Shown here in pieces: positions 8,733 through 47,063 of a DNA stretch of 64,000 nucleotides. The notes beneath the pieces were generated by a model. The model searched no databases. It was given only the letters and a program-made list of their open reading frames with translations, and was not told where the DNA came from. Where the stretch lies: contig AP026073.1 in the NCBI GenBank assembly GCA_024349765.1, positions 310,001 to 374,000 of the forward strand, in the 5' to 3' direction. The stretch is from Streptomyces nigrescens (GTDB taxonomy: Bacteria > Actinomycetota > Actinomycetes > Streptomycetales > Streptomycetaceae). The position numbers were made by a program, and so were the translations under genes. Positions within the stretch are counted from its first letter, which is position 1. Each line of letters begins with the position of its first letter.

Positions 8733-9692
8733 ATGAGCGGGGACGGGGACAACGGCCGCGGCACCGGCGGCGCGGCCGGCGGTGCGCCGGGGGAGCGGGC
8801 CGCGGAGGCCCGGGCCGAGGAGGCGCGGGACGCGACGGCCGGCCGGGTCACGGACGTGGACACCGGCACCGCCGCCCGCCTCCAGAAGCTCTTCGAGGGC
8901 CACCGGCTGACGCCCACCCAGCGCCGGATCGCGCACTGCATGGTGCGCCGGGCCGCCGACGCGCCCTTCCTCTCCAGCGTCGAACTGGCCGAACTGGCCG
9001 GCGTCAGCCAGCCGTCCGTCACCCGCTTCGCGGTGGCGCTCGGCTTCGACGGCTACCCGGCACTCCGCCGCCACCTGCGCGAGGTCGCGCCCGCGGAGAA
9101 GGCCGGCGACGACGGCACCGCCAACGAGTACCAGCAGGCCGTCCAGGCGGAGATCGACAACCTCCGGCACCTGGCCGCCGCGCTGGCCGACCCGTCGCCG
9201 GTGATCGAGGCCGGCCGCCTCTTCGCCGCCTCCCGGCCGCTGCCCGTCCTCGGCCTGCGCGCCGCCACCGCCCAGGCCGCCGGGTTCACGTACTTCGCCC
9301 GCAAGGTCCACCCGGACGTCCGGCTGCTGGACGAGGGCGGCACGCTGCTCCCCGACCGGATCGACGCCGCGGTGCGGGCCGGCGCCACCACCCTGCTGTG
9401 CTTCGCGCTGCCCCGGCATCCCCGCGAGGTCGTCGAGGCCCTCGCCTACGCCCGGGACGCCGGGCTGACCGTGGTCACCGTCGCCGACAGCGCCTTCGCG
9501 CCGGTCGCCCGCCACACCGACCTGCTGCTGCCCGCCGCGGTCGGCACCGGCCTGGCCTTCGACACCGCCTGCGCCCCCATGCTCCTGGGCCGCGTCCTGC
9601 TGGAGGCGATGTGCGACGCGCTACCGGACGCGCAGGCACGCCTCGAAGAATTCGATGCGCGGGCCGCTGCGCGGGGGCTCTTTGTGGAATAA
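8733..9692 (+). CDS. RpiR/MurR family transcriptional regulator
   Basis: 319 residues from ATG 8733, preceded by GAAGAGG. An Ala/Glu/Gly-rich N-terminal extension of about 45 residues precedes an RpiR-type HTH (HRLTPTQRRIAHCMV ... VSQPSVTRFAVALGFDGYPALR, about residues 70-115). A SIS sugar-phosphate-binding domain follows (about residues 150-290; TTLLCFALPRHPREVVEALAYA). Such regulators usually sense phosphosugars. The target here is unknown; the lyase upstream on the same strand is one candidate. The TAA stop is 1 bp from palindromic repeat copy B. Confidence 0.88.
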   Translation: MSGDGDNGRGTGGAAGGAPGERAAEARAEEARDATAGRVTDVDTGTAARLQKLFEGHRLTPTQRRIAHCMVRRAADAPFLSSVELAELAGVSQPSVTRFAVALGFDGYPALRRHLREVAPAEKAGDDGTANEYQQAVQAEIDNLRHLAAALADPSPVIEAGRLFAASRPLPVLGLRAATAQAAGFTYFARKVHPDVRLLDEGGTLLPDRIDAAVRAGATTLLCFALPRHPREVVEALAYARDAGLTVVTVADSAFAPVARHTDLLLPAAVGTGLAFDTACAPMLLGRVLLEAMCDALPDAQARLEEFDARAAARGLFVE

Positions 9693-38049: not shown

Positions 38050-39222
38050 GTGGCGGGAACCGCTGATTTCGATCTGTACCGGCCGTCCGAGGAGCACGAC
38101 ATGCTCCGCGAGTCGGTGCGCTCGCTCGCCGAGGCGAAGATCGCGCCGTTCGCCGCCGCGGTGGACGAGGAGGCCCGCTTCCCGCAGGAGGCGCTCGACG
38201 CGCTGGTCGCCAACGACCTGCACGCCGTCCACGTACCGGAGTCCTACGGCGGTGCCGGCGCCGACGCGCTGGCGACCGTCATCGTGATCGAGGAGGTCGC
38301 CCGGGTCTGCGCCTCGTCCTCCCTCATACCTGCCGTCAACAAGCTCGGCTCGCTGCCGGTGATCCTCTCCGGCTCCGAGGAGCTGAAGAAGAAGTACCTC
38401 GGTCCGCTCGCGGGCGGCGACGCGATGTTCTCGTACTGCCTGAGCGAGCCGGACGCCGGTTCCGACGCGGCCGGCATGAAGACCAAGGCCGTCCGCGACG
38501 GCGATGACTACGTCCTCAACGGCGTCAAGCGCTGGATCACCAACGCCGGCGTCAGCGAGTACTACACGGTGATGGCGGTCACCGACCCGGAGAAGCGCTC
38601 CCGGGGCATCTCGGCCTTCGTCGTCGAGAAGGGCGACGAGGGCGTCTCCTTCGGCGCCCCGGAGAAGAAGCTCGGCATCAAGGGCTCCCCGACCCGCGAG
38701 GTCTACCTCGACAACGTCCGCATCCCCGCCGACCGCATGATCGGCGAGGAGGGCACCGGCTTCGCCACGGCCATGAAGACCCTGGACCACACCCGCATCA
38801 CCATCGCGGCCCAGGCGCTCGGCATCGCCCAGGGCGCGCTGGACTACGCCAAGGGCTACGTCCAGGAGCGCAAGCAGTTCGGCAAGCCGATCGGCGACTT
38901 CCAGGGCATCCAGTTCATGCTCGCCGACATGGCGATGAAGCTGGAGGCGGCCCGTCAGCTCACCTACGCCGCGGCGGCCCGCTCCGAGCGGATCTCGGCC
39001 GGCGGCAAGGGCGAGGACCTGACCTTCTTCGGCGCCGCGGCCAAGTGCTACGCCTCGGACGCCGCCATGGAGATCACCACGGACGCGGTCCAGCTGCTCG
39101 GCGGCTACGGCTACACCCGCGACTACCCGCTGGAGCGGATGATGCGGGACGCCAAGATCACCCAGATTTATGAGGGCACGAACCAAGTTCAGCGGATCGT
39201 GATGGCAAGGAACCTTCCCTAG
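38050..39222 (+). CDS. Acyl-CoA dehydrogenase with island-supplied 3' end
   Basis: 390 residues from GTG 38050. Acyl-CoA dehydrogenase motifs are YCLSEPDAGSDAAGMKT, KRWITNAGVSEYYTVMAV, GIKGSPTREV, QFGKPIGDFQGIQFMLADM and a C-terminal GGYGYTRDYPLERMMRDAKI. It is a flavoprotein of fatty-acid beta-oxidation. The last 18 codons, including catalytic Glu375 in IYEGTN, use atypical codons (ATT TAT, CAA GTT, AGG, CTT). They match the sequence at 47004-47063 at the protein level, so the native gene end was displaced by the island. The protein remains full length, ending RNLP rather than RNLPQ. Confidence 0.93.
   Translation: MAGTADFDLYRPSEEHDMLRESVRSLAEAKIAPFAAAVDEEARFPQEALDALVANDLHAVHVPESYGGAGADALATVIVIEEVARVCASSSLIPAVNKLGSLPVILSGSEELKKKYLGPLAGGDAMFSYCLSEPDAGSDAAGMKTKAVRDGDDYVLNGVKRWITNAGVSEYYTVMAVTDPEKRSRGISAFVVEKGDEGVSFGAPEKKLGIKGSPTREVYLDNVRIPADRMIGEEGTGFATAMKTLDHTRITIAAQALGIAQGALDYAKGYVQERKQFGKPIGDFQGIQFMLADMAMKLEAARQLTYAAAARSERISAGGKGEDLTFFGAAAKCYASDAAMEITTDAVQLLGGYGYTRDYPLERMMRDAKITQIYEGTNQVQRIVMARNLP
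39163..39222 (+). repeat. attL: integrated gene end
   Basis: CAG followed by 18 codons and TAG, encoding IYEGTNQVQRIVMARNLP. About 10 of 54 bases differ from the right-end copy at 47004-47057, all at synonymous positions. The longest identical runs are ATCGTGATGGC (39196-39206) and GAGGGCAC (39172-39179). Confidence 0.85.
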
Positions 39223-39421
39223 CAGGGTTTTTGCAGGTCAGAAGCTGTTTCGACGGCCCGGCGAGTCAGTCACGGCTTCCTGTCCGTTGCGGCCCGATCA
39301 GGCCCGTTCCTGGGCGTCATGCTGGGGAAATCCTGGGTAGACGCCTGGCTGGAAACGGCCTCTGACCTGCGTAAACAGCACAGCCCCCGGCGCGTGGCCG
39401 GGGGCTGTTGTCGTAGGTGGT
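39223..39421. promoter_or_regulatory. Left-end arm region with integrase terminator
   Basis: Non-coding between attL and the integrase stop. It has GCAGGTCA at 39233-39240 and TGACCTGC at 39363-39370, matching sites at the right end, as arm-type integrase or Xis sites would. GGGGAAATCCTGGG near 39323 resembles GGGGAAATGCTGGG near 46929. A hairpin ACAGCCCCCGG (39380-39390) with CCGGGGGCTGT (39398-39408) and a 7-nt loop can terminate the integrase transcript. Confidence 0.6.
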
Positions 39422-40597
39422 TCAGGCGACCTCTGATGCCTCCGTGGGATCGTCAGCGCCGGGCGTCAACATCGTTGCGATGGCGGCCCGGCCGCGCTGC
39501 TCGGCCCCTTCGAAGATGTAGTGGTAGTGCTCCCTCAGCACGTCCGTACTGCTGTGGCCCATCCAGTCGGCCACATCGTTCTCGGGGACTCCGGCGTACA
39601 GCAGCCGCGACCCGTAGTAGTGCCGGAGTGAGTGCGTCTTGCAGTACTTCACCTGTCCCTTCCCCAGAGCCTCCATCCAGATCTTCGGGTAGAAGTACGA
39701 CGCGTAGAGGTATCCAGTCCGCGTCACGTTGGGGAAGAGAAGCCGCTCAGGCCCCCATACGCCGTGGTTCTTGATGTGCCGCCGAAGCTCGAAGGCGACG
39801 TTCGGCGGGAGGGGGACGGTACGCCCTGGCTCGCCTTCGTCACGAGCCTTGATGTGCCGACGCTGGATCGCGCTGTTCTTCCCCGACTCGGTGTCTCCGT
39901 CCTCCGCAATCTGGAAGTCGACCCGAAGCGTCTCGGCCTTGAAGTCGATCTGATCGCGGGACACCGCCATGGCCTCACCCAGCCGCAGGCCGCATCCAGC
40001 CATGAGCCAGAGCATCGCGCGGTAACGCGGTGGGGCTGCATCCAGCATCGCCAGTACTTCCCGCGTCGTGAGCCGTCGAGCGGTGCTCTTGTGCTCCCGG
40101 ATCTCCTTGGCGCGACTGCCCGCGCCCTTGACCTCCTTGCATGGGTTCCGGCCGATGATCTCGTTGGCGACAGCCCAGTCCATCATCCCGGAGAAGAACG
40201 AGAACCGCTGACGCCGAGTCCGGGCGGACAGCTTCCGATCCTGCTCCATCCACAAGAGCCACTGCTCAACGTCAGCGATCTTCAGGGACACGATGGAACG
40301 GGCCTTGAAGAACGGCTCAATGGTCGTGTTGAGGATCGACCGGTACTGCTTCTTGGTGCTGTTCTCCAGCTTCCTCTGATTCGTCCACTGCTCCCATACC
40401 GCCGTCACCGGCTGCTTGCCCAACCGGTCGTCCAGGTAGGTCCCGGCGTCGAGTTCCTGCTCCTTGCGCTTGCGCTGGTCATCAGCCCGCTTCTTGGTCT
40501 CGAACGTCTTCTGCCGCTGCTTGCCGTCCGGGTCGTACCAGAACGTCGTCCACTTCTTCGGGTCGTCCTTCGACCGCGCAACCCAAGCTCTAGCCAC
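39422..40597 (-). CDS. int: Tyrosine recombinase/integrase of the island
   Basis: 391 residues from GTG 40597; the frame is open to 40705 but AAAGG lies before 40597. The N-terminal part includes TTFWYDPDGKQRQKTFETKK, an AP2-like arm-binding segment. A SAM-like core-binding domain with STKKQYRSILNTTIEPFF follows. The catalytic domain has Arg in CGLRLGEAMAVS, HxxR in THSLRHYYGSRLL, ADWMGHSSTDVL and the nucleophile Tyr in LREHYHYIF. It catalyses integration at the dehydrogenase 3' end. Its position at the left end, reading toward att, is usual for such elements. Confidence 0.94.
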   Translation of the reverse strand: MARAWVARSKDDPKKWTTFWYDPDGKQRQKTFETKKRADDQRKRKEQELDAGTYLDDRLGKQPVTAVWEQWTNQRKLENSTKKQYRSILNTTIEPFFKARSIVSLKIADVEQWLLWMEQDRKLSARTRRQRFSFFSGMMDWAVANEIIGRNPCKEVKGAGSRAKEIREHKSTARRLTTREVLAMLDAAPPRYRAMLWLMAGCGLRLGEAMAVSRDQIDFKAETLRVDFQIAEDGDTESGKNSAIQRRHIKARDEGEPGRTVPLPPNVAFELRRHIKNHGVWGPERLLFPNVTRTGYLYASYFYPKIWMEALGKGQVKYCKTHSLRHYYGSRLLYAGVPENDVADWMGHSSTDVLREHYHYIFEGAEQRGRAAIATMLTPGADDPTEASEVA

Positions 40598-40728
40598 GGA
40601 GGTGCTGGCCTTTCTGTTCAAGGGGAGTGCTCGACCGGTGCGCCGGGAGCATCTGACCTCAGACTGAACTTGGCCACCCTGAGTTGTCAACCCTGGGTGG
40701 GTCACTCAGAGTGGTGTATGGTGAGGGT

Positions 40729-41271
40729 ATGCGAGCAGATGAGAGCGGCTTTGAGATCGAGCAGCAGCAAGGGGGGTGGACGGTCCGGATGTGGTGGCCC
40801 GTGGGGACTGTGACGGGTGGCCCCCAGCGCATCACCATCGAGCCGGCTGCCGATGCGCCCGAACGTGACGTGGCACGGGGCATCTCCACGACCGTGCTGC
40901 GCAGGCTCGACCTCGCGGCGGCTTTGAACCTTGCCAAGATGGCGCCGGAGGCCCAGAGCACTCTTGAAAACACGGCCAAGAAGCTGAGCGAGTCTGGTGA
41001 GGCGGCGGGGCTTCTGCTGGCCAATGAAGGGGTCTCGGAGAGGTACTTGGTTTTGCTCGCGGCTACTTATAAGGCCCTGGCGGACACAGGGGCTGTGGCC
41101 CCCGTGCGACATCTGGCGCGGCTCATCGGCCGTCAGCCAGAGACCATCAAGGACCACTTGAAGAAGACACGGCGCGAGGGCTACCTCAGCACCGTCGCAG
41201 GAAAGGCCGGAGGGGAGCTGACTGAGAAGGCATTGGCGATCTTGAAGTGCATGCCGTCTGCGGAAGCGTAG
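40729..41271 (+). CDS. Island HTH-type protein divergent from integrase
   Basis: 180 residues from ATG 40729, preceded by GGTGAGGG. The N-terminal half (ESGFEIEQQQGGWTVRMWW) is not recognised. The C-terminal part reads VAPVRHLARLIGRQPETIKDHLKKTRREGYLS, a convincing helix-turn-helix with a following wing. It is the kind of protein often found next to integrases in actinobacterial integrative elements and may control int or downstream genes. The 131-bp gap to int holds TTGTCA (40684-40689) and an inverted repeat CTGAGT/ACTCAG around 40679-40709. Confidence 0.72.
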   Translation: MRADESGFEIEQQQGGWTVRMWWPVGTVTGGPQRITIEPAADAPERDVARGISTTVLRRLDLAAALNLAKMAPEAQSTLENTAKKLSESGEAAGLLLANEGVSERYLVLLAATYKALADTGAVAPVRHLARLIGRQPETIKDHLKKTRREGYLSTVAGKAGGELTEKALAILKCMPSAEA

Positions 41272-41351
41272 CCTGCACGGCCCAAATTCCTAATCCCGCA
41301 TCGCAATGGCCCCCGAGATGACTCGGGGGCTTTCTTTGTCTGGAGAGTTGA

Positions 41352-41522
41352 TTGACCAAGCTGATGACTGTTGGCGACGTGGCCGAGTACCTGAACAAGC
41401 CTCGGTCGTGGGTGTATGAGAACTGGAGAAACGAGAAGATCCCGTTCAGGAAGGTAGGGCAGTCGCTTCGATGCCGTCCTGCCGATCTGGACTGCTGGCT
41501 GGACGACCGGGAGGCCATGTGA
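41352..41522 (+). CDS. Small AlpA/MerR-type HTH protein, excisionase candidate
   Basis: 56 residues from TTG 41352 (GGAGAG is 4 bp upstream); ATG 41364 is an in-frame alternative. The peptide contains LMTVGDVAEYLNKPRSWVYE, then FRKVGQSLRCRPADLDCWL, the standard winged HTH of excisionase/AlpA-like proteins that bind att DNA. It lies in the integrase region, and its stop overlaps the next start by one base (ATGTGATG). Together with int it would form the recombination module. Confidence 0.8.
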   Translation: MTKLMTVGDVAEYLNKPRSWVYENWRNEKIPFRKVGQSLRCRPADLDCWLDDREAM

Positions 41523-41994
41523 TGCGCCAGAAGACTCCAGACAGCGACTCTTGGGCTGTCGACCCCTTCGACCCTTTCGGTGGCGAGGCTCCGTGGGAAA
41601 TGCAACGTCGTCAGGATGGGGAGGAGCGCTCCAGGGAGGCGGGAGACGGTTCTCTTCACCGTCCGTCCCCGCCGGCCAGCGCGGAGCGCGAAGACAGGTG
41701 GGAGGACATGACGACGCGCCACTACGACTTCATCGGGCATGTGCTGGCCTCAGACCTGCCTCACGCGAACCGCACCTTGGCCACCGCCGTTGCCCTGCAC
41801 TGCGGGCCGAACAGTCACGGTTGTTCAGCCTCGGTCGGCACCCTCGCGGATGAAACGAGGATGACCGTCGCGACGTACGGAAGCGGCTCAGACTCCTTGA
41901 GGAGAAGAAGTTGATCCGCCACGACGGTTGGACAACTCCAAAGGCCGGGGCCACCTCCGGCACCAAGGTCTATCGGATCGGCAGACCCAAGTAA
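41522..41994 (+). pseudogene. Winged-helix (HTH_36-like) protein interrupted by a frameshift
   Basis: ATG 41522 opens a frame that stops at 41914 (130 residues). Up to LADETRMTV it reads as a winged-helix DNA-binding protein (HYDFIGHVLASDLPHANRTL, CSASVGTLADE). After codon 41867 the sense continues in another frame (from GAC 41872): DVRKRLRLLEEKKLIRHDGW, on to YRIGRPK and TAA 41992-41994. One missing base near GTCGCGACG explains this. HTH_36-type domains are common in replication and regulatory proteins of mobile elements. Either the gene is inactivated or the base loss is a sequencing error. Confidence 0.75.
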
Positions 41995-42017
41995 GCCGGG
42001 GCTTCCCGCTCGATAGG

Positions 42018-42125
42018 TAGGGGTCTTTTACCCTCTTGGGTAGGGGTGTTCGAGCCCCTTGGATAGGGGGAGGTCACCCCTCCAAACATTTCATTGAACA
42101 TCCAATACAACATCTAATAGAACAT
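42018..42125. repeat. Iteron-like region: 23-bp and 12-bp phased repeats
   Basis: TAGGGGT/TAGGGGG starts at 42018, 42041 and 42064, exactly 23 bp apart, within units sharing TAGGGGTnTT...CC...CTTGG. An AT-rich stretch follows in which AACAT recurs at 42085, 42097, 42109 and 42121, exactly 12 bp apart. The layout of GC-rich iterons beside an AT-rich 12-mer array resembles plasmid origins. It directly follows the winged-helix gene. Confidence 0.75.
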
Positions 42126-42163
42126 GCCCGCCCCATCAGAGGGGCGGGCTGTTGTTTCTTTCT
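42126..42163 (+). terminator. Rho-independent-type terminator
   Basis: GCCCGCCCC (42126-42134), loop ATCAGA, GGGGCGGGC (42141-42149), then TGTTGTTTCTTTCT. The stem plus T-rich tract is unusually canonical for this genome. It would end the rightward 40729-41994 transcript. Confidence 0.8.
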
Positions 42164-42167
42164 GGCG

Positions 42168-42245
42168 GAGACTCTTGGGAGTCTCGACCAGCCAAGGAAA
42201 GTAGAGTTAGGCAACCGGTTGCCAACGAGACTCAGGGGAGTCTCG
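42168..42245. promoter_or_regulatory. Three clustered inverted repeats
   Basis: GAGACT-CTTGGG-AGTCTC (42168-42185), the perfect palindrome GGCAACCGGTTGCC (42210-42223) and CGAGACT-CAGGGG-AGTCTCG (42226-42245). The outer two share the AGACT/AGTCT arms. They are candidate operator or structured-RNA elements between the terminator and the small membrane-protein gene. The rest of the 41995-42324 gap is the iteron region. Confidence 0.55.
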
Positions 42246-42324
42246 TACCAACTGGCGAGGGAGCGCGCGCCCATGGCATGTGCCCCCGCTAGCCGTGTAC
42301 AACTGCCCCGTCGTTATCGGCGGG

Positions 42325-42525
42325 TCAGCCGAGGGCGCGGAGGCTCGTCAGCACTAGGAGGAAGAGCGTCAGTGCGGCGCCAGCCGCGGCTGAACCGCCT
42401 CGGATGCAGGCTGGCGTGCGGGCTCCTTCCCACCGAGCGAGTAGGCCGGCCACCATGCCGACAATGATCGCTGCCAGCACCGCCGCCAGGATAAGCAGCA
42501 GCCTGACGTAGAGGGGCAGTCCCAC
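42325..42525 (-). CDS. Small two-helix membrane protein
   Basis: 66 residues from GTG 42525, preceded by GGAGGTTGAA. Two hydrophobic helices (VRLLLILAAVLAAIIVGMVAGLLA and AAGAALTLFLLVLTSLRAL) are separated by a short loop WEGARTPACIRGG. Function unknown; small proteins of this type are frequent in Streptomyces integrative elements. The good ribosome binding site makes it a credible gene. Confidence 0.65.
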   Translation of the reverse strand: MGLPLYVRLLLILAAVLAAIIVGMVAGLLARWEGARTPACIRGGSAAAGAALTLFLLVLTSLRALG

Positions 42526-42620
42526 TTCAACCTCCGTTGCACACAAGCGAGATGAACACACTCAGCTTCCGTGCAGGCCGGCTGCTGAACTAGCATTCCG
42601 GACTACCTCGATAAATCACA

Positions 42621-42660
42621 GGACTATGCAGGACTTCGCAGGAGTATGGGGGACTACATG
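42621..42660. repeat. Four 10-bp phased repeats over an HTH gene start
   Basis: GGACTATGCA, GGACTTCGCA, GGAGTATGGG and GGACTACATG lie in perfect 10-bp register, with a further GGACTACCTC at 42600. One copy per helical turn suggests cooperative binding on one DNA face, perhaps autoregulation by the downstream HTH protein. Confidence 0.6.
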
Positions 42661-43470
42661 GGGCGACGACTGGAGCCGCTCGACGCAGAGAACCCTCTGC
42701 ATGTGTTCGCCCTGCGACTGAGGCAACTCAGGGACGCGGCCGGGACAGCAGGGGACACCAAGGCGACGTGCCAACGAGTGGGCATCTCACCCACGACGTA
42801 CTACGCATGGCTGGCTGGGAAGCAACTTCCAGGAAGAGACGCCTTGGAGCGCACGGTCAAAGCATGGGGCGGAGAGGTCGCGGAGTGGTTGGAGCTTAGA
42901 GGCCGGACAGAGGAGACACTCGCGAAGTTGGCGGCGCAACAACGAGCCCTGGCTTCGCCGCCCCAACCATCGGCCCGCTCCCAAGAGGTCGAGACCCAGG
43001 AACGGAGTGTCCTTCCTTCTGGAACTTCAGCTCATGTGAGGCTTCGAGAGGCGCGTGAACTTCTCCGAATCCTTGGCTTCCTGGATGAAGCTACAGGTGA
43101 GCGCTCTGGACTCATTTTCTTGTCCTTGCTCAATTTAACTCCAGATAGGGATTGGCATCAGGTGGAGCGACCAGTGCGGCAGACGGTTGATGCTATGCGG
43201 TGGATCGGAGAATTCTATGGGGTTCACTACAAGCCGAACACCAGAGAGACGATTCGTCGGCGCACCCTTCATGAATTCAGGGAGAAGGCTCTCATCGTTT
43301 GGAATCCAGACAACCCCAACCGTCCCATCAACTCGCCCAAGTGGTGTTTTCAATTGTCGGACATGTACTTCCCGTTGATTCGCGGCTACAAACAAAAGTA
43401 CTTCTGGCGCGAACTGGCAGATTTCTGGGGAAGAGTCGGTCACGGGTTCTTTGGAGATGAGAGCAGGTGA
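42658..43470 (+). CDS. HTH protein fused to PstI/BsuBI-type recognition domain, no nuclease domain
   Basis: 270 residues from ATG 42658 (ATG 42646 is in frame). Residues about 10-75 form an XRE-like HTH (CQRVGISPTTYYAWLAGKQL). After a polar linker, residues about 125-260 read LREARELLRILGF, ERSGLIFLSLLNL, HYKPNTRETIRRRTLHEF and NRPINSPKWCFQL. These closely follow the N-terminal DNA-binding domain of PstI (KDYKPNSRETIRRQTLHQF, recalled). The C-terminal catalytic domain of these enzymes is absent, and no methyltransferase gene is nearby. It may be a sequence-specific regulator made from a restriction-enzyme domain. Local GC is lower than the chromosome's. Confidence 0.78.
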   Translation: MGRRLEPLDAENPLHVFALRLRQLRDAAGTAGDTKATCQRVGISPTTYYAWLAGKQLPGRDALERTVKAWGGEVAEWLELRGRTEETLAKLAAQQRALASPPQPSARSQEVETQERSVLPSGTSAHVRLREARELLRILGFLDEATGERSGLIFLSLLNLTPDRDWHQVERPVRQTVDAMRWIGEFYGVHYKPNTRETIRRRTLHEFREKALIVWNPDNPNRPINSPKWCFQLSDMYFPLIRGYKQKYFWRELADFWGRVGHGFFGDESR

Positions 43471-43892
43471 TCGAGCGTAAGTTGCCATGGTTCTCAGGAG
43501 AATGTGTATAAAGTCCTGCCTGCGAATAAAGCAGGTGCCGTCGGACCTCATGCGTGATGGGTCAACCAAAAAGTGCGGCGAGCTCACACATTGAGTCATT
43601 CATCTCCCGGCGGGGCGGTTAATTCGCTGTGTAATAAGGCTGAAGCGAGGGCGCAGAAGGCTTAAGGATGCCTCTGTGTGCGGCAGCGGGTATCTAGGGA
43701 GAGCGCCTCAGCCTGAGGGTCGGCTCCTTCTTCTTCGCAGGAAAATCGATACCCGTACATGATCCAAGGGAGGCACCCCCGGTGGGTCCTAATAAATTTC
43801 AGGCGGGCATTACCCCAGGCAATTGTATATTCCGTTTACTGAATTGCCCCGCCCTTTGAGGTGGGCCCAGTATGTGAAGACGCTTTGCTTTG
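43471..43892. other. 422-bp low-GC non-coding stretch of the island
   Basis: No convincing gene on either strand. CGGGTATC (43687-43694) pairs with GATACCCG (43748-43755) around an inner CCTCAG-C-CTGAGG palindrome (43706-43718) and a pyrimidine-rich run, giving a possible structured RNA. No remnant of a nuclease catalytic domain was recognised. Confidence 0.5.
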
Positions 43893-44369
43893 TTAGTTCG
43901 ACGTCGCGATCGGGCAGCCCAGGGCAGCGTGATAACGGTTCGGGGAGCAGGTCACAACTGCCAGGGACAGGTAGCAGGGGCGTTCTAGGTAGAAGCCGTA
44001 TGACACATCAGCACCTGAGTGCAGTTCTTCGGCAGCAGCATGCACTATCCGGGCCAGGCCCGTGGTGTCGCGGTACCTTTCCGACGCGAACCGAGATGCG
44101 TACTCGGCCAGCCGCTCACCGAGCCATGATGCCGCCTCCTTTGCCTCATCCCAGGTGCCTCGAACCGCTGAAGGGGGCTTGATAAGCCAGTACGCCGTTT
44201 CGAGAGGCGGGAGGTCCGATGTGGGGAACTCTAGGGCGGCCTCGCGGTAACGCTGGATCAGTTCCGGCTTGCTGCCGGCCGGGGGTGGGTCAGGGTGCGG
44301 GGGACGTCGTAGAGCCTCGTTGTCGAAGCGCTCTTTCGGCCCGGTCCATAGGTAGCCGTGGTGGTGCAC
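43893..44369 (-). CDS. Hypothetical island protein
   Basis: 158 residues from GTG 44369; the true start may lie elsewhere because no ribosome site is evident and the frame continues upstream. The sequence looks coding (PELIQRYREAALEFP, AYWLIKPPSAVRGTWDEAKE, YRDTTGLARIVHAAAEEL) but I recognise no family. It is predicted soluble and mostly helical. It is oriented like the DUF397/XRE genes to its right and may be the last member of that group. Confidence 0.55.
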   Translation of the reverse strand: MHHHGYLWTGPKERFDNEALRRPPHPDPPPAGSKPELIQRYREAALEFPTSDLPPLETAYWLIKPPSAVRGTWDEAKEAASWLGERLAEYASRFASERYRDTTGLARIVHAAAEELHSGADVSYGFYLERPCYLSLAVVTCSPNRYHAALGCPIATSN

Positions 44370-44451
44370 CAGTCGTTCCCGTTCGAGTGGTGCCAGCCGG
44401 GCCGGACCCAGGGACGGGGGATGTTCCCGGCCCGACTGGCGGGAGGGGGGA

Positions 44452-44676
44452 TCAGATGTTCAGGCCGAAGCGCGCCGGGTCGATGCCGGCCGCGCTCAGC
44501 TCCTCCGTGGTGAACCGCAGCGGCTCCGCACTCGGCCGCTTGCTGTCACCGAGCGCCCAGAGACCGTCGCCGATCCGGGCCAGGGTCACGCACCCCTCCG
44601 TGCAGGGGCCGCCGCACGCCTGGACGAACGAGGCCCCGCTGATGTCGAGCGCGTACAGGTCGGTTCCGTTCTGCAT
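44452..44676 (-). CDS. DUF397-like small protein
   Basis: 74 residues from ATG 44676, with GGAAGG 7 bp upstream; GTG 44679 is adjacent. It reads ALDISGASFVQACGGPCTEGCVTLARIG, then DSKRPSAEPLRFTTEEL. The C-terminal DSK..P....L.FT pattern is that of DUF397 proteins, which occur next to XRE/DUF5753 regulators in Streptomyces and act with them as antitoxin-like or regulatory partners. Three Cys occur in the first half. Confidence 0.72.
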   Translation of the reverse strand: MQNGTDLYALDISGASFVQACGGPCTEGCVTLARIGDGLWALGDSKRPSAEPLRFTTEELSAAGIDPARFGLNI

Positions 44677-44958
44677 CACTGCACCTTCCTGCTAACTGAT
44701 CACGGCCATGGCTGGCCGTCGCCGCCCGAACGGGCGGGAGTCAAAGGGGGAGAGCCGCGCTTCAGCGGTTGGAACGCTTGCCGTACTCGGCGCACCGCGT
44801 GCACTCGCACGGCGGCCACGCGGAAGTCATGAGAGGTGCCAGATCATCGCTCGCGGATACTGCCTGCTCGGGCCCCCGCGATCGCCCGGAGTCACGGGAA
44901 ACGCGCATCGTCATCAGCGGCCGGTCAGCGAAGAGACGCTGCGCCGCTCCCTTACGCG

Positions 44959-45171
44959 TCACGCGTGTACCTCGGCTTGGTGGCGGCGGAGCCTTACGTT
45001 GCCGTCTGAAACCCCGCTGTAGTTCCCTGCGGATCGCGCGTTCTCGCGAGCCACCGACAGCGAGAGGCACGTACGGCATCCGGGCTTAGGGGACGGCTCA
45101 CTTGTCCCGTTCATCAGGCTAATTGCCGATGCGGTCGACTCCGGATCGGAAGTTCTCTCTTCGCTCCCCAT
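44959..45171 (-). CDS. Small Cys-containing hypothetical protein
   Basis: 70 residues from ATG 45171, with no strong ribosome site. The C-terminal half, PGCRTCLSLSVARENARSAG then SDGNVRLRRHQAEVHA, resembles small CxxC proteins that accompany XRE/DUF397 genes in Streptomyces. The N-terminal 25 residues are low-complexity. It follows the XRE gene by 32 bp in the same direction. The region 44680-44958 beyond it shows no firm gene. Confidence 0.45.
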   Translation of the reverse strand: MGSEERTSDPESTASAISLMNGTSEPSPKPGCRTCLSLSVARENARSAGNYSGVSDGNVRLRRHQAEVHA

Positions 45172-45203
45172 GACGCCATCTTCGGCTGGCCGGGGGCGCG
45201 CCT

Positions 45204-46034
45204 CTAGGCTGTTTCCTGTTCCCGCAAAAAGTCGTTGCGAATGTCTTCGAGTAGGCCTCGCATTCTGTCCCCCGACAGAGCTACGGCCGCGAACCCATTG
45301 AACTTATCTACGTACAGCCCAACGTCTCTCGGGTCCGTAACGACCACTTCAGCGTGCACGGTCTCTATCGTCACCATGTGGTCATCGCGGATAACGAACG
45401 CGTGATTGGCGATGTCGTGTTGCTGAATCGCCAGCGGCACCACTCGCACATCCACGTGAGGCAGGCGCGATATGGAGGCGATGCGGTCGAGCTGCGCCGC
45501 CATCATCTGCGGTGGGACGATTCTCCACCTTAGTGCCGGTTCCGTGATGACGAACTGAAGTGATTTCGTGCTGTCGTACAGAACCGCTTGCCGTTCGAGC
45601 CTTCCGCTGATTGTGCGCGTGAGGGCGTCTTCACCCAGGTTGTGCCGTTTCAGAACGGCCCGGATGTACTCCGGGGTTTGGAGCAGGCCGGGGATCAGTG
45701 CCGGTTGAAAGAGCCGCAGCGTCGACATCTGGGCTTCCAGGGCCTTGGCGGCTTGCTGCCCCTTGTGGACGCCGATGCGCTTCAGCAGCCGCCACGCTGT
45801 AGCTTCGGTCGCGGACGCGCGGGCAGCCTCCGTGTACTCGGCCTTGACTTCATCCGATACGCCGATGGCGGTCAGGATGCGTTCAACATCCGTGGCGCTC
45901 GGTGCGAGCTTGGCATTCTCGATCTTGGACAGCTTGGACGGAGACATGAGGGCGCTGCGGGCCACTGCCTTGGCTTCTTTTCCAGATGCCATTCGCAGCG
46001 CCCGCAGCGCGGCCCCAAGCTGTGCTCTGTTCAC
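45204..46034 (-). CDS. XRE-family regulator with DUF5753 domain
   Basis: 276 residues from GTG 46034, which overlaps the stop of the DUF6879 gene in GTGA. N-terminal HTH: LGAALRALRMASGKEAKAVA and MSPSKLSKIENAKLAPS. The C-terminal DUF5753 region (about residues 95-270) includes FQPALIPGLLQTPEYIRAVL, RQAVLYDSTKSLQFVITEPALRW and HVDVRVVPL. This family (WhiJ/BldD-neighbour type) is abundant in Streptomyces and works with DUF397 partners in developmental or stress regulation. It forms a three-gene operon with 46031-46730. Confidence 0.9.
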   Translation of the reverse strand: MNRAQLGAALRALRMASGKEAKAVARSALMSPSKLSKIENAKLAPSATDVERILTAIGVSDEVKAEYTEAARASATEATAWRLLKRIGVHKGQQAAKALEAQMSTLRLFQPALIPGLLQTPEYIRAVLKRHNLGEDALTRTISGRLERQAVLYDSTKSLQFVITEPALRWRIVPPQMMAAQLDRIASISRLPHVDVRVVPLAIQQHDIANHAFVIRDDHMVTIETVHAEVVVTDPRDVGLYVDKFNGFAAVALSGDRMRGLLEDIRNDFLREQETA

Positions 46035-46555
46035 GCCCCGTACTTGGCCCACCATTCGGTAAATGGTTCCGCATGGGCGAGTGCCATGTCGCGGTACCTG
46101 GTGAACTCTGCCACCTGTTCCGGCTCCAGCACTTCCGAGCCCAGGTACTTTCCTGCCCCGTCATATTTCATCACGGCCACGGACTCGGAATCGAAGCACC
46201 AGAAGTCCGGTACGCCGGCCAGGGGATTGGGTTCCTCGGTGACGTCGAGGATGAAGAACTCTTCACCTCCGGTCATGTTCTTCCGGTAGCCCCACCCGAG
46301 TTCGAACAAAAGATAGTCTGTGAGCGGGCGCGACAGAATGTGCACCCGATACACCCGCTTCCCGTTCTCGGTGTGCGAGCGGAGTTCTTCCACCCATCCT
46401 GCGTTGTAGTCCTCGGGCTGCGGCTCCCCGGCCAGGTAGGCGTGATATGCGTCGACGTTCCCGGACTTGCTGTAGTCGTCCAGGGTTTCCAGACGGAAAG
46501 CCTCACGCTGGAACGAGTCGAAGAGGTCGCCGAGGGTCTTAGATGAGCTTGTCAC
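46031..46555 (-). CDS. DUF6879-family protein
   Basis: 174 residues from GTG 46555, overlapping the upstream small gene by 17 bp. Motifs include FDSFQREAFRLETLDDYS, HTENGKRVYRVHILSRPLTDYLLFELGWGY, FFILDVTEEPNPL and DFWCFDSESVAVMKYD. They match the DUF6879 proteins typically encoded just upstream of an XRE/DUF5753 regulator. The biochemical role is unknown. Translational coupling to that regulator is clear. Confidence 0.85.
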   Translation of the reverse strand: MTSSSKTLGDLFDSFQREAFRLETLDDYSKSGNVDAYHAYLAGEPQPEDYNAGWVEELRSHTENGKRVYRVHILSRPLTDYLLFELGWGYRKNMTGGEEFFILDVTEEPNPLAGVPDFWCFDSESVAVMKYDGAGKYLGSEVLEPEQVAEFTRYRDMALAHAEPFTEWWAKYGA

Positions 46556-46730
46556 GGATGGCCTTCTGGAGCAGTTCCATCGGAATCTCGACCAGGGTTT
46601 CGTGAGCGGGAATCTGGAGCCCGTGGTCCGTTGGCGTCTCGCCCTGCACCAGGAAAGTGCCGCGATCCGTCGCGTAGATCGTAGGGCAGTCCTTGATGTC
46701 GCAGGTGCTGACCAGCTTGGTGACCTTCAT
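46539..46730 (-). CDS. Small hypothetical protein, first gene of the XRE operon
   Basis: 63 residues from ATG 46730, preceded by GGAGGGG. The sequence (VTKLVSTCDIKDCPTIYATD, then LVQGETPTDHGLQIP, ETLVEIPMELLQKAI) matches the short companions of DUF6879/XRE units in streptomycetes. It has a CxxxxC pair. Its end overlaps the next start by 17 bp. Function unknown. Confidence 0.78.
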   Translation of the reverse strand: MKVTKLVSTCDIKDCPTIYATDRGTFLVQGETPTDHGLQIPAHETLVEIPMELLQKAIRDKLI

Positions 46731-47003
46731 GGTCTGGGTTCCCCTCCCATGCCGCTGTCAGTGCCTCGCGTCTGGGTTGATGCTCCCGAGGGCCGGGCGT
46801 GTGGGTCAAGCGATCACGGTTGACGGGACGGGAAACCGCGTGACGCCCTCCAAGCCTGCTCGTCTGTTGCCCTCTCAGGCTCGGCTTCAAGGCGGCTGGG
46901 GTGACCTGCGCAGACTGTTGACGATCATGGGGAAATGCTGGGGAGCCCTCCTCTGAGAGGGCTGTTCATGCAGGTCAGGACCATATGACCTGTAAAGCAC
47001 AGA
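46731..47003. promoter_or_regulatory. Right-end arm region of the island
   Basis: Non-coding between the XRE operon start and attR. TGACCTGC at 46902-46909, GCAGGTCA at 46970-46977 and TGACCTG at 46986-46992 repeat the left-end motif; the last two form CAGGTCA-N8-TGACCTG. A hairpin GCCCTC-CTCTGA-GAGGGC lies at about 46945-46962. These are probable integrase/Xis sites and an outward terminator. Confidence 0.6.
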
Positions 47004-47063
47004 ATCTACGAGGGCACCAACCAGGTCCAGCGCATCGTGATGGCGCGCAACCTGCCCCAGTAA
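47004..47063 (+). pseudogene. attR: stranded native 3' end of the acyl-CoA dehydrogenase gene
   Basis: Nineteen codons plus TAA encoding IYEGTNQVQRIVMARNLPQ with GC-rich host codons (ATC TAC, CAG GTC, CGC). It is in frame with nothing upstream in the island. This is the original end of the gene now at 38050-39222, separated by island insertion, and it still sits next to a strong terminator. Confidence 0.88.

Follow-up and report, generated by a model that had tools for sequence, protein, structure and literature searches.

Why does a single stretch of Streptomyces nigrescens DNA contain the end of the same enzyme gene twice? In the 64,000 nucleotides of contig AP026073.1 analysed here (positions 310,001 to 374,000; hereafter the window), an acyl-CoA dehydrogenase (ACAD) gene is followed by an island with a tyrosine integrase, and a second ACAD 3′ end lies at the far side of this island. 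The final 18 codons of the gene encode IYEGTNQVQRIVMARNLP (39166–39219) and are followed by TAG; the second tail encodes the same 18-residue peptide (47004–47057) and continues with CAG TAA (to 47063). All 18 residues are identical, and 10 of the 54 nucleotides differ, in 9 of the 18 codons, with every change synonymous. A tblastn search with the 18-residue tail against the fetched loci gave E of about 7e-9, which excludes a pairing of the tails by chance. The right copy stands without a gene body; an in-frame stop closely precedes it, and the ACAD body is not repeated before it. We propose that the two ends reflect an integrase-driven swap, in which the island replaced the ACAD end with a re-spelled coding end of its own, and that the window copy is probably a reduced, satellite-like member of its family. 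We put the probability of this reading at roughly 0.93.

To which party does each end belong? The two flanks of the window were joined at the break (243 bases) and run against 295 congeneric genomes. The best match, at 95%, was G194 (locus L117), the only one among the matches listed to cover all 243 bases. In L117, the ACAD gene runs on without a break. From ATC onward, its tail is identical to the right-hand copy of the window until the final base of the stop codon, where the two first differ, and the flanks of the locus match those of the window at 97.7% over 1,669 bp (left) and 96.4% over 1,595 bp (right). Because this single gene ends like the right-hand copy and its flanks match on both sides, the left gene end is the island's and the right gene end is the displaced end of the host. 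The ACAD gene as now read is host-derived to about 39167 and island-derived beyond. A relative free of the island had been set beforehand as a test of the preliminary description of this locus, and L117 is such a relative; the duplicated 18-codon end with about 10 synonymous differences, also reported there, holds as well. A further claim, that the codon for the catalytic glutamate was replaced synonymously, stands in part: the codon was physically exchanged, but it is GAG in both tails (39172 and 47010, in the YEGT motif) and hence unchanged, the neighbouring codons being the ones re-spelled.

The enzyme has lost its last residue, as the island-borne end stops at NLP where the displaced end, like the unbroken L117 gene, reads NLPQ. 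The ACAD of the window has Thr in LDHTR, at what we take to be the position where long-chain acyl-CoA dehydrogenase (LCAD) and isovaleryl-CoA dehydrogenase (IVD) carry their Glu. In ACADs other than these two, the catalytic Glu is described as sitting in the J-K loop (PMC11153573). The enzyme with the swapped end presumably still works.

Table 1. Features of the ACAD locus and its island (window coordinates)
Feature	Position	Strand	Evidence or remark
ACAD gene, integration target	38050..39222	+	Pfam Acyl-CoA_dh N/M/1; PDB match E 5e-189
attL core, 9 bp common to host site and island end	39159..39167	+	identity to empty site up to 39167
Island-borne, synonymously re-spelled ACAD end with stop; first two bases shared with host	39166..39222	+	
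GCAGGTCAG motif, candidate integrase site	39233..39241	+	role assigned by position
Inverted copy CTGACCTGC	39362-39370		
Tyrosine integrase, 391 aa	39422..40597	-	PF00589 1.2e-17, PF22022
Conserved gene, no Pfam match; guessed to be a regulator	40684..41271	+	
HTH_17 protein, candidate excisionase (xis)	41355..41522	+	PF12728 2.2e-10
Helix-turn-helix (HTH) and BsuBI/PstI restriction-enzyme N-domain protein	42646..43470	+	PF17728 4.6e-32; PADLOC REase_II, MTase_II models
XRE/DUF5753 regulator, cargo common to many relatives	45204..46055	-	PF19054 1.7e-40
DUF6879 protein	46031..46555	-	PF21806 2.5e-47
Conserved right island end with GCAGGTCAG and TGTAAAGCAC; attR junction	46920..47003	+	about 76-88% identity to relatives' right ends
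Displaced original host ACAD end with stop	47004..47063	+	equal to the uninterrupted L117 gene to the last stop-codon base

Identity with the empty site ends at 39167, and the first island-type base is 39168. At most right-hand junctions in the family, host-type codons come after AAAGCAC-S-CAG-AT. Since these junctions carry the sequence CACSCAGAT and identity to the empty site reaches 39167, strand exchange probably takes place within it. In the mechanism we envisage, the integrase would recombine the attachment site of the island (attP) at this 9-bp core, 4 bases before the presumed catalytic Glu codon. Beside the core, attP would hold a complete, re-spelled gene end with its stop, such that integration would exchange the host end for the island's and keep the reading frame whole. 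The original end is left at the far side, as an attR without gene body, and excision would restore it. Of 42 left ends, 30 contain the motif GCAGGTCAG and 21 the inverted CTGACCTGC; among 25 right ends, 15 contain GCAGGTCAG. These repeats are candidate integrase sites, assigned by position only.

Is the ACAD end the regular target of this integrase? The start of the integrase gene was chosen to fit the 391-aa open reading frames (ORFs) of several relatives. We scanned a named collection with one genome per species (84,980 species), a scan that picks up close integrase relatives only, and obtained 47 integrase loci, all from Streptomyces. The ACAD tail precedes the integrase in 47 of 47; the integrase itself is cut short in 16. 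Among the 295 congeners, with which the named collection shares several genomes (the two sets are not independent), an integrase match at E 1e-60 occurs in 16. In 15 of these, the window's own included, the copy has an identity of 87% or more and adjoins ACAD (14 of 14 other genomes). For two homologues of 37–39% identity (in G246, and the second match in G016), the fetched loci contain no ACAD; the ACAD site therefore goes with this integrase clade. Counting the window, 42 of 48 loci have 201–206 bp between stop and integrase. These data agree with the preliminary description, which had proposed looking for integrase homologues at the same gene and placed the target in the 3′ end of a protein gene rather than in a tRNA. 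The sole tRNA found in the window (9098–9193) was considered as a target and rejected, as it lies far from the island. Carriage of the integrase by phages or plasmids was likewise rejected, since a search at E 1e-20 gave nothing above about 31% identity (three phage and two plasmid records).

The displaced tail on the right falls within the fetched DNA in 25 of 48 loci; the others end or run past that DNA, or have lost the tail. Tail-to-tail spans range from 4.8 to 11.3 kb in the 18 of these 25 loci that have a full-length integrase. Because loci were cut no further than 10 kb from the integrase, counts of elements and genes are lower bounds. In at least seven genomes (G004, G015, G052, G055, G142, G162 and G267), there are two near-equal matches to this ACAD end, and the site may be doubled in some species.

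How does a piece of a host enzyme evolve inside a mobile element? The same 18 residues are encoded by the island-side tails of 47 of 48 loci, L115 having two conservative changes. Among 32 island tails from loci with a full-length integrase, pairwise codon comparisons gave 2,616 synonymous and 0 nonsynonymous differences. GC content at third codon positions rises from 0.73 in the 48 island tails through 0.94 in the 25 displaced tails to 0.98 in the 17 empty sites, a set restricted to loci that lack integrase matches and have the downstream gene <400 bp away. AGG spells the Arg of MAR in 46 of the 48 island tails, 8 of the 25 displaced ones and none of the 17 empty sites, and the mean distance to empty sites is 4.7 nt for displaced tails and 9.6 nt for island tails. 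We compared distances by Mantel tests, using the 32 of 48 loci with full-length integrase (18 of them with both tails). Island tails correlate with the integrase (r = 0.55, P = 0.0001; 0.52 when partialled on the host gene), and their correlation with the host gene body (r = 0.23, P = 0.004) disappears when partialled on the integrase (−0.10, P = 0.92). Variation in the island-borne ends follows the integrase and not the host gene.

Several observations weigh against the proposed swap. The attR core of the window (46998–47003) is irregular, reading AAGCACAGAATC, that is, CAC-AGA-ATC versus CAC-SCAG-ATC in most relatives, and irregular cores are also found in L070, L075, L079, L080, L095 and L096. 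An attP-like junction, sought in the IMG/VR viral contigs, gave 0 matches. In 4 of the 149 fetched loci (three genomes), an attP-like junction is present, with an island-type tail on the attR side, an arrangement that needs repeated insertion or a resident scar. The island-like AGG codon occurs in the 8 displaced tails counted above. And displaced tails track neither the integrase (r = −0.18) nor the host body (r = −0.19; n = 18), although 54 bases with few variable sites may hold too little signal. As for the irregular core, the neighbouring tail of the window still equals the empty-site allele, and the junction could possibly stem from imprecise exchange, or from drift in an unselected place. 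An arm-like motif lies behind ACAD in 4 of 52 sites without a full integrase (L054, L056, L063 and L126; positive control, 45 of 48), and L054 has an extra 47-residue stretch with 55% identity to the integrase. Earlier insertions seem to leave scars or to stack. The 52 loci of this count leave out L041, L053, L061 and L120 (the last three occupied or with integrase pieces), L138 (the window), and L131 and L133 (second copies from genomes that were already counted).

What kind of element is the island? Its relatives keep the same left end, and many also the last 80 bp, with differing interiors. Fuller relatives are compact islands of about 11 kb that hold the integrase, an xis-like gene and, variously, primase and packaging or capsid genes. 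Seven of the 47 loci encode a phage major head protein, of type A in five (L075, L087, L088, L093 and L100) and type B in two (L091 and L094), with profile matches of 1.1e-44 to phrog_267 and 9.9e-33 to phrog_283. Of these, L088 (S. mashuensis JCM 4059) and L091 (S. flavofungini JCM 4753) show both island ends. All five type A loci contain a scaffold relative (phrog_4708, 1.4e-12 in L093). A small protein is found in 7 of 47 loci (L071, L073, L074, L091, L094, L098 and L101); of two tested against Pfam Terminase_7, that of L091 scored above the cut-off (1.7e-6) and that of L094 below it (0.0017). The name small terminase (TerS) is tentative here, because PHROGs calls the family a minor tail protein. 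No TerS-like small protein was found in the five type A loci. A phage-type primase (DUF3987) is present over at least 80% of its length in 13 of 47 loci, in one of which, L101, it is split between two frames, and some relatives carry an HNH endonuclease. In L071, L073, L074, L098 and L101, a protein of 234–264 aa without convincing family occupies the place of the head gene. At L071:6738-7448, L074:7058-7768 and L098:6943-7668, this protein has about 236–241 aa and lies in front of the TerS-like gene. A structure model of the head protein had a mean pLDDT (predicted local distance difference test) of 31 and was not used.

Two viral contigs from IMG/VR bear on this gene set. One (L147/L148, 8.7 kb) combines the integrase, scaffold, head A, TerS-like gene and primase. 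The other (L149, 13 kb; L149:1-9000) has xis, scaffold, head, TerS-like, Lsr2-like and primase genes in the same order, with a different integrase-like ORF at the end. The head/scaffold/primase module has thus moved between integration systems, and in its gene content the family resembles phage satellites. The window island has no primase, head, scaffold or packaging genes of the kind seen in these fuller relatives. It does share a segment (42306–42609, 83%) with L087, where the segment lies directly behind the head gene; this suggests that the scaffold, head, Lsr2-like and primase genes were lost. In view of this and of the irregular attR core, we regard the window island as a probably reduced and perhaps immobile member of a family resembling phage satellites.

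Other origins can be weighed against these data. Short repeated gene ends can arise by duplication, and the second ACAD end could in principle be a chance duplication or gene conversion in which the integrase had no part. We find this hardly credible, as the integrase lies at a near-fixed distance, L117 offers the empty site, and the same arrangement recurs in 47 of 47 loci. An actinomycete integrative and conjugative element (AICE), or a mobilizable relative, is a second alternative: AICEs are common in Streptomyces and some occupy protein genes, as described in PMC9513070. FtsK/TraB and an AICE-type (pSAM2) Rep were, however, not found in nine scanned ORFs of the window island (41523–41912 was left out) or in the scanned ORFs of relatives, a set that is not exhaustive, and the primase of the relatives is of the phage type, with none in the window. 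We regard an AICE origin as quite improbable.

Somewhat more can be said for the island being the remnant of an ordinary temperate prophage stripped of most genes. Genes for a head, a scaffold and a small-terminase-like protein could also persist in a decayed prophage, and the PHROGs name of the small protein points to a phage tail. Against this, similar compact sets recur in several hosts. Type A loci combine integrase, conserved gene, xis, scaffold, head A, Lsr2-like gene and primase; L091 and L094 pair head B with the small-terminase-like gene; and L147 unites all of these. A further 54 ORFs chosen from the seven head-protein loci yielded no portal, large terminase or TraB (families listed: 25 of 26), and no phage record contains this integrase above the 31% level given above. 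These data make a prophage remnant unlikely. A more ambitious version of the satellite reading is that the ACAD site is home to undescribed satellites that encode their own head, scaffold and TerS-like gene and would take the portal, large terminase and tails from a helper. The enzyme end in attP would then be under host selection for fatty-acid metabolism, its spelling drifting with the integrase, and the window would be a reduced descendant. We offer this tentatively, at somewhat less than even odds, which are lowered by the finding that head, scaffold and TerS-like genes occur together only in the IMG/VR contigs L147 and L149, the latter with another integrase.

Exchange of a gene end is itself a known kind of mechanism. 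The cryptic prophage e14 enters the 3′ part of icd in E. coli and supplies its own coding end, the displaced 165 bp remaining with 12 nt differences (Hill et al. 1989, via PMC11148124). The present island likewise enters the end of a metabolic enzyme gene, supplies a coding end and leaves the displaced end at the far side; as in e14/icd, the integrase adjoins the interrupted end (47 of 47) and the carried end is in frame (47 of 48). In contrast to e14/icd, where 54 residues are involved with two amino-acid changes, the carried end here comprises 18 codons with synonymous differences only, and host, enzyme and element differ. Restoring islands in general have been described (PMC12884075), and a Streptomyces survey reports 14 protein-gene sites versus 36 tRNA sites (PMC9513070). 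The AICEs of that survey, in protein genes such as rlmN, resemble the present family in genus, integrase-borne specificity, protein-gene sites, and accretion and decay; unlike in AICEs, TraB and an AICE replication gene were not found in the ORFs scanned here. The term "acyl-CoA" is absent from the main text of the survey (its supplement lay outside the search). We found no ACAD end described as an integration site in print, with subscription papers and supplements outside the search. The nearest reports concern a prophage with a serine integrase, inserted near position 280 in a fadE gene of mycobacteria (PMC9934374), and a phiC31 pseudo-attB in S. rimosus (PMC7890619). What seems new is the ACAD target gene and the partial capsid gene set in relatives.

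Among satellites, to our knowledge, canonical phage-inducible chromosomal islands (PICIs) encode no head protein. The relatives are like PICIs and capsid-forming PICIs (cf-PICIs; PMC10690885) in having an integrase, excisionase-like gene, primase, small-terminase-like gene, head protein and, in some, an HNH gene within about 11 kb. The cf-PICIs are described as carrying a protease, portal, connectors and both terminase subunits (PMC10690885); in the 54 ORFs mentioned above, no portal, connector or terminase family other than the small-terminase-like one was found. Predicted PICIs of Actinomycetota are mentioned in the same paper. The MulchRoom satellite (OQ784832) shares with our family the host genus, small genome, TerS, scaffold, head protein, tyrosine integrase and Lsr2-like gene; unlike our family, it has a portal and a large terminase, and tblastn with 15 proteins of the present family gave no match to it at E 1e-3.

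The 48 carried gene ends, each with its integrase, form a natural series in which a piece of a host enzyme resides inside the attachment site of a mobile element and evolves under host protein constraint but with the element's history. The site could serve Streptomyces engineering as a conserved chromosomal landing site, with integrase and att sequences at hand. Having only part of a capsid set, the candidate satellite family bears on the division of labour between satellite and helper. If only the integration holds, the locus is still a good extra case of the mechanism known since e14/icd.

Regarding the other genes of the window island, a counterpart of the conserved gene adjoins the integrase at ≥80% length in 30 of the 32 loci whose integrase is full-length, the window being one of these. 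Behind xis, a small HTH-like gene (41523–41980) seems, by eye, to be frameshifted. No nuclease domain was found in the protein with the BsuBI/PstI-type N-domain, which may be cargo or a remnant. The island also holds a DUF397-like gene, under the Pfam cut-off. Among the relatives, L094 carries a radical-SAM gene (L094:2854-3966) that matches prokaryotic viperin models (PADLOC pVip, 9e-14) and may represent anti-phage cargo.

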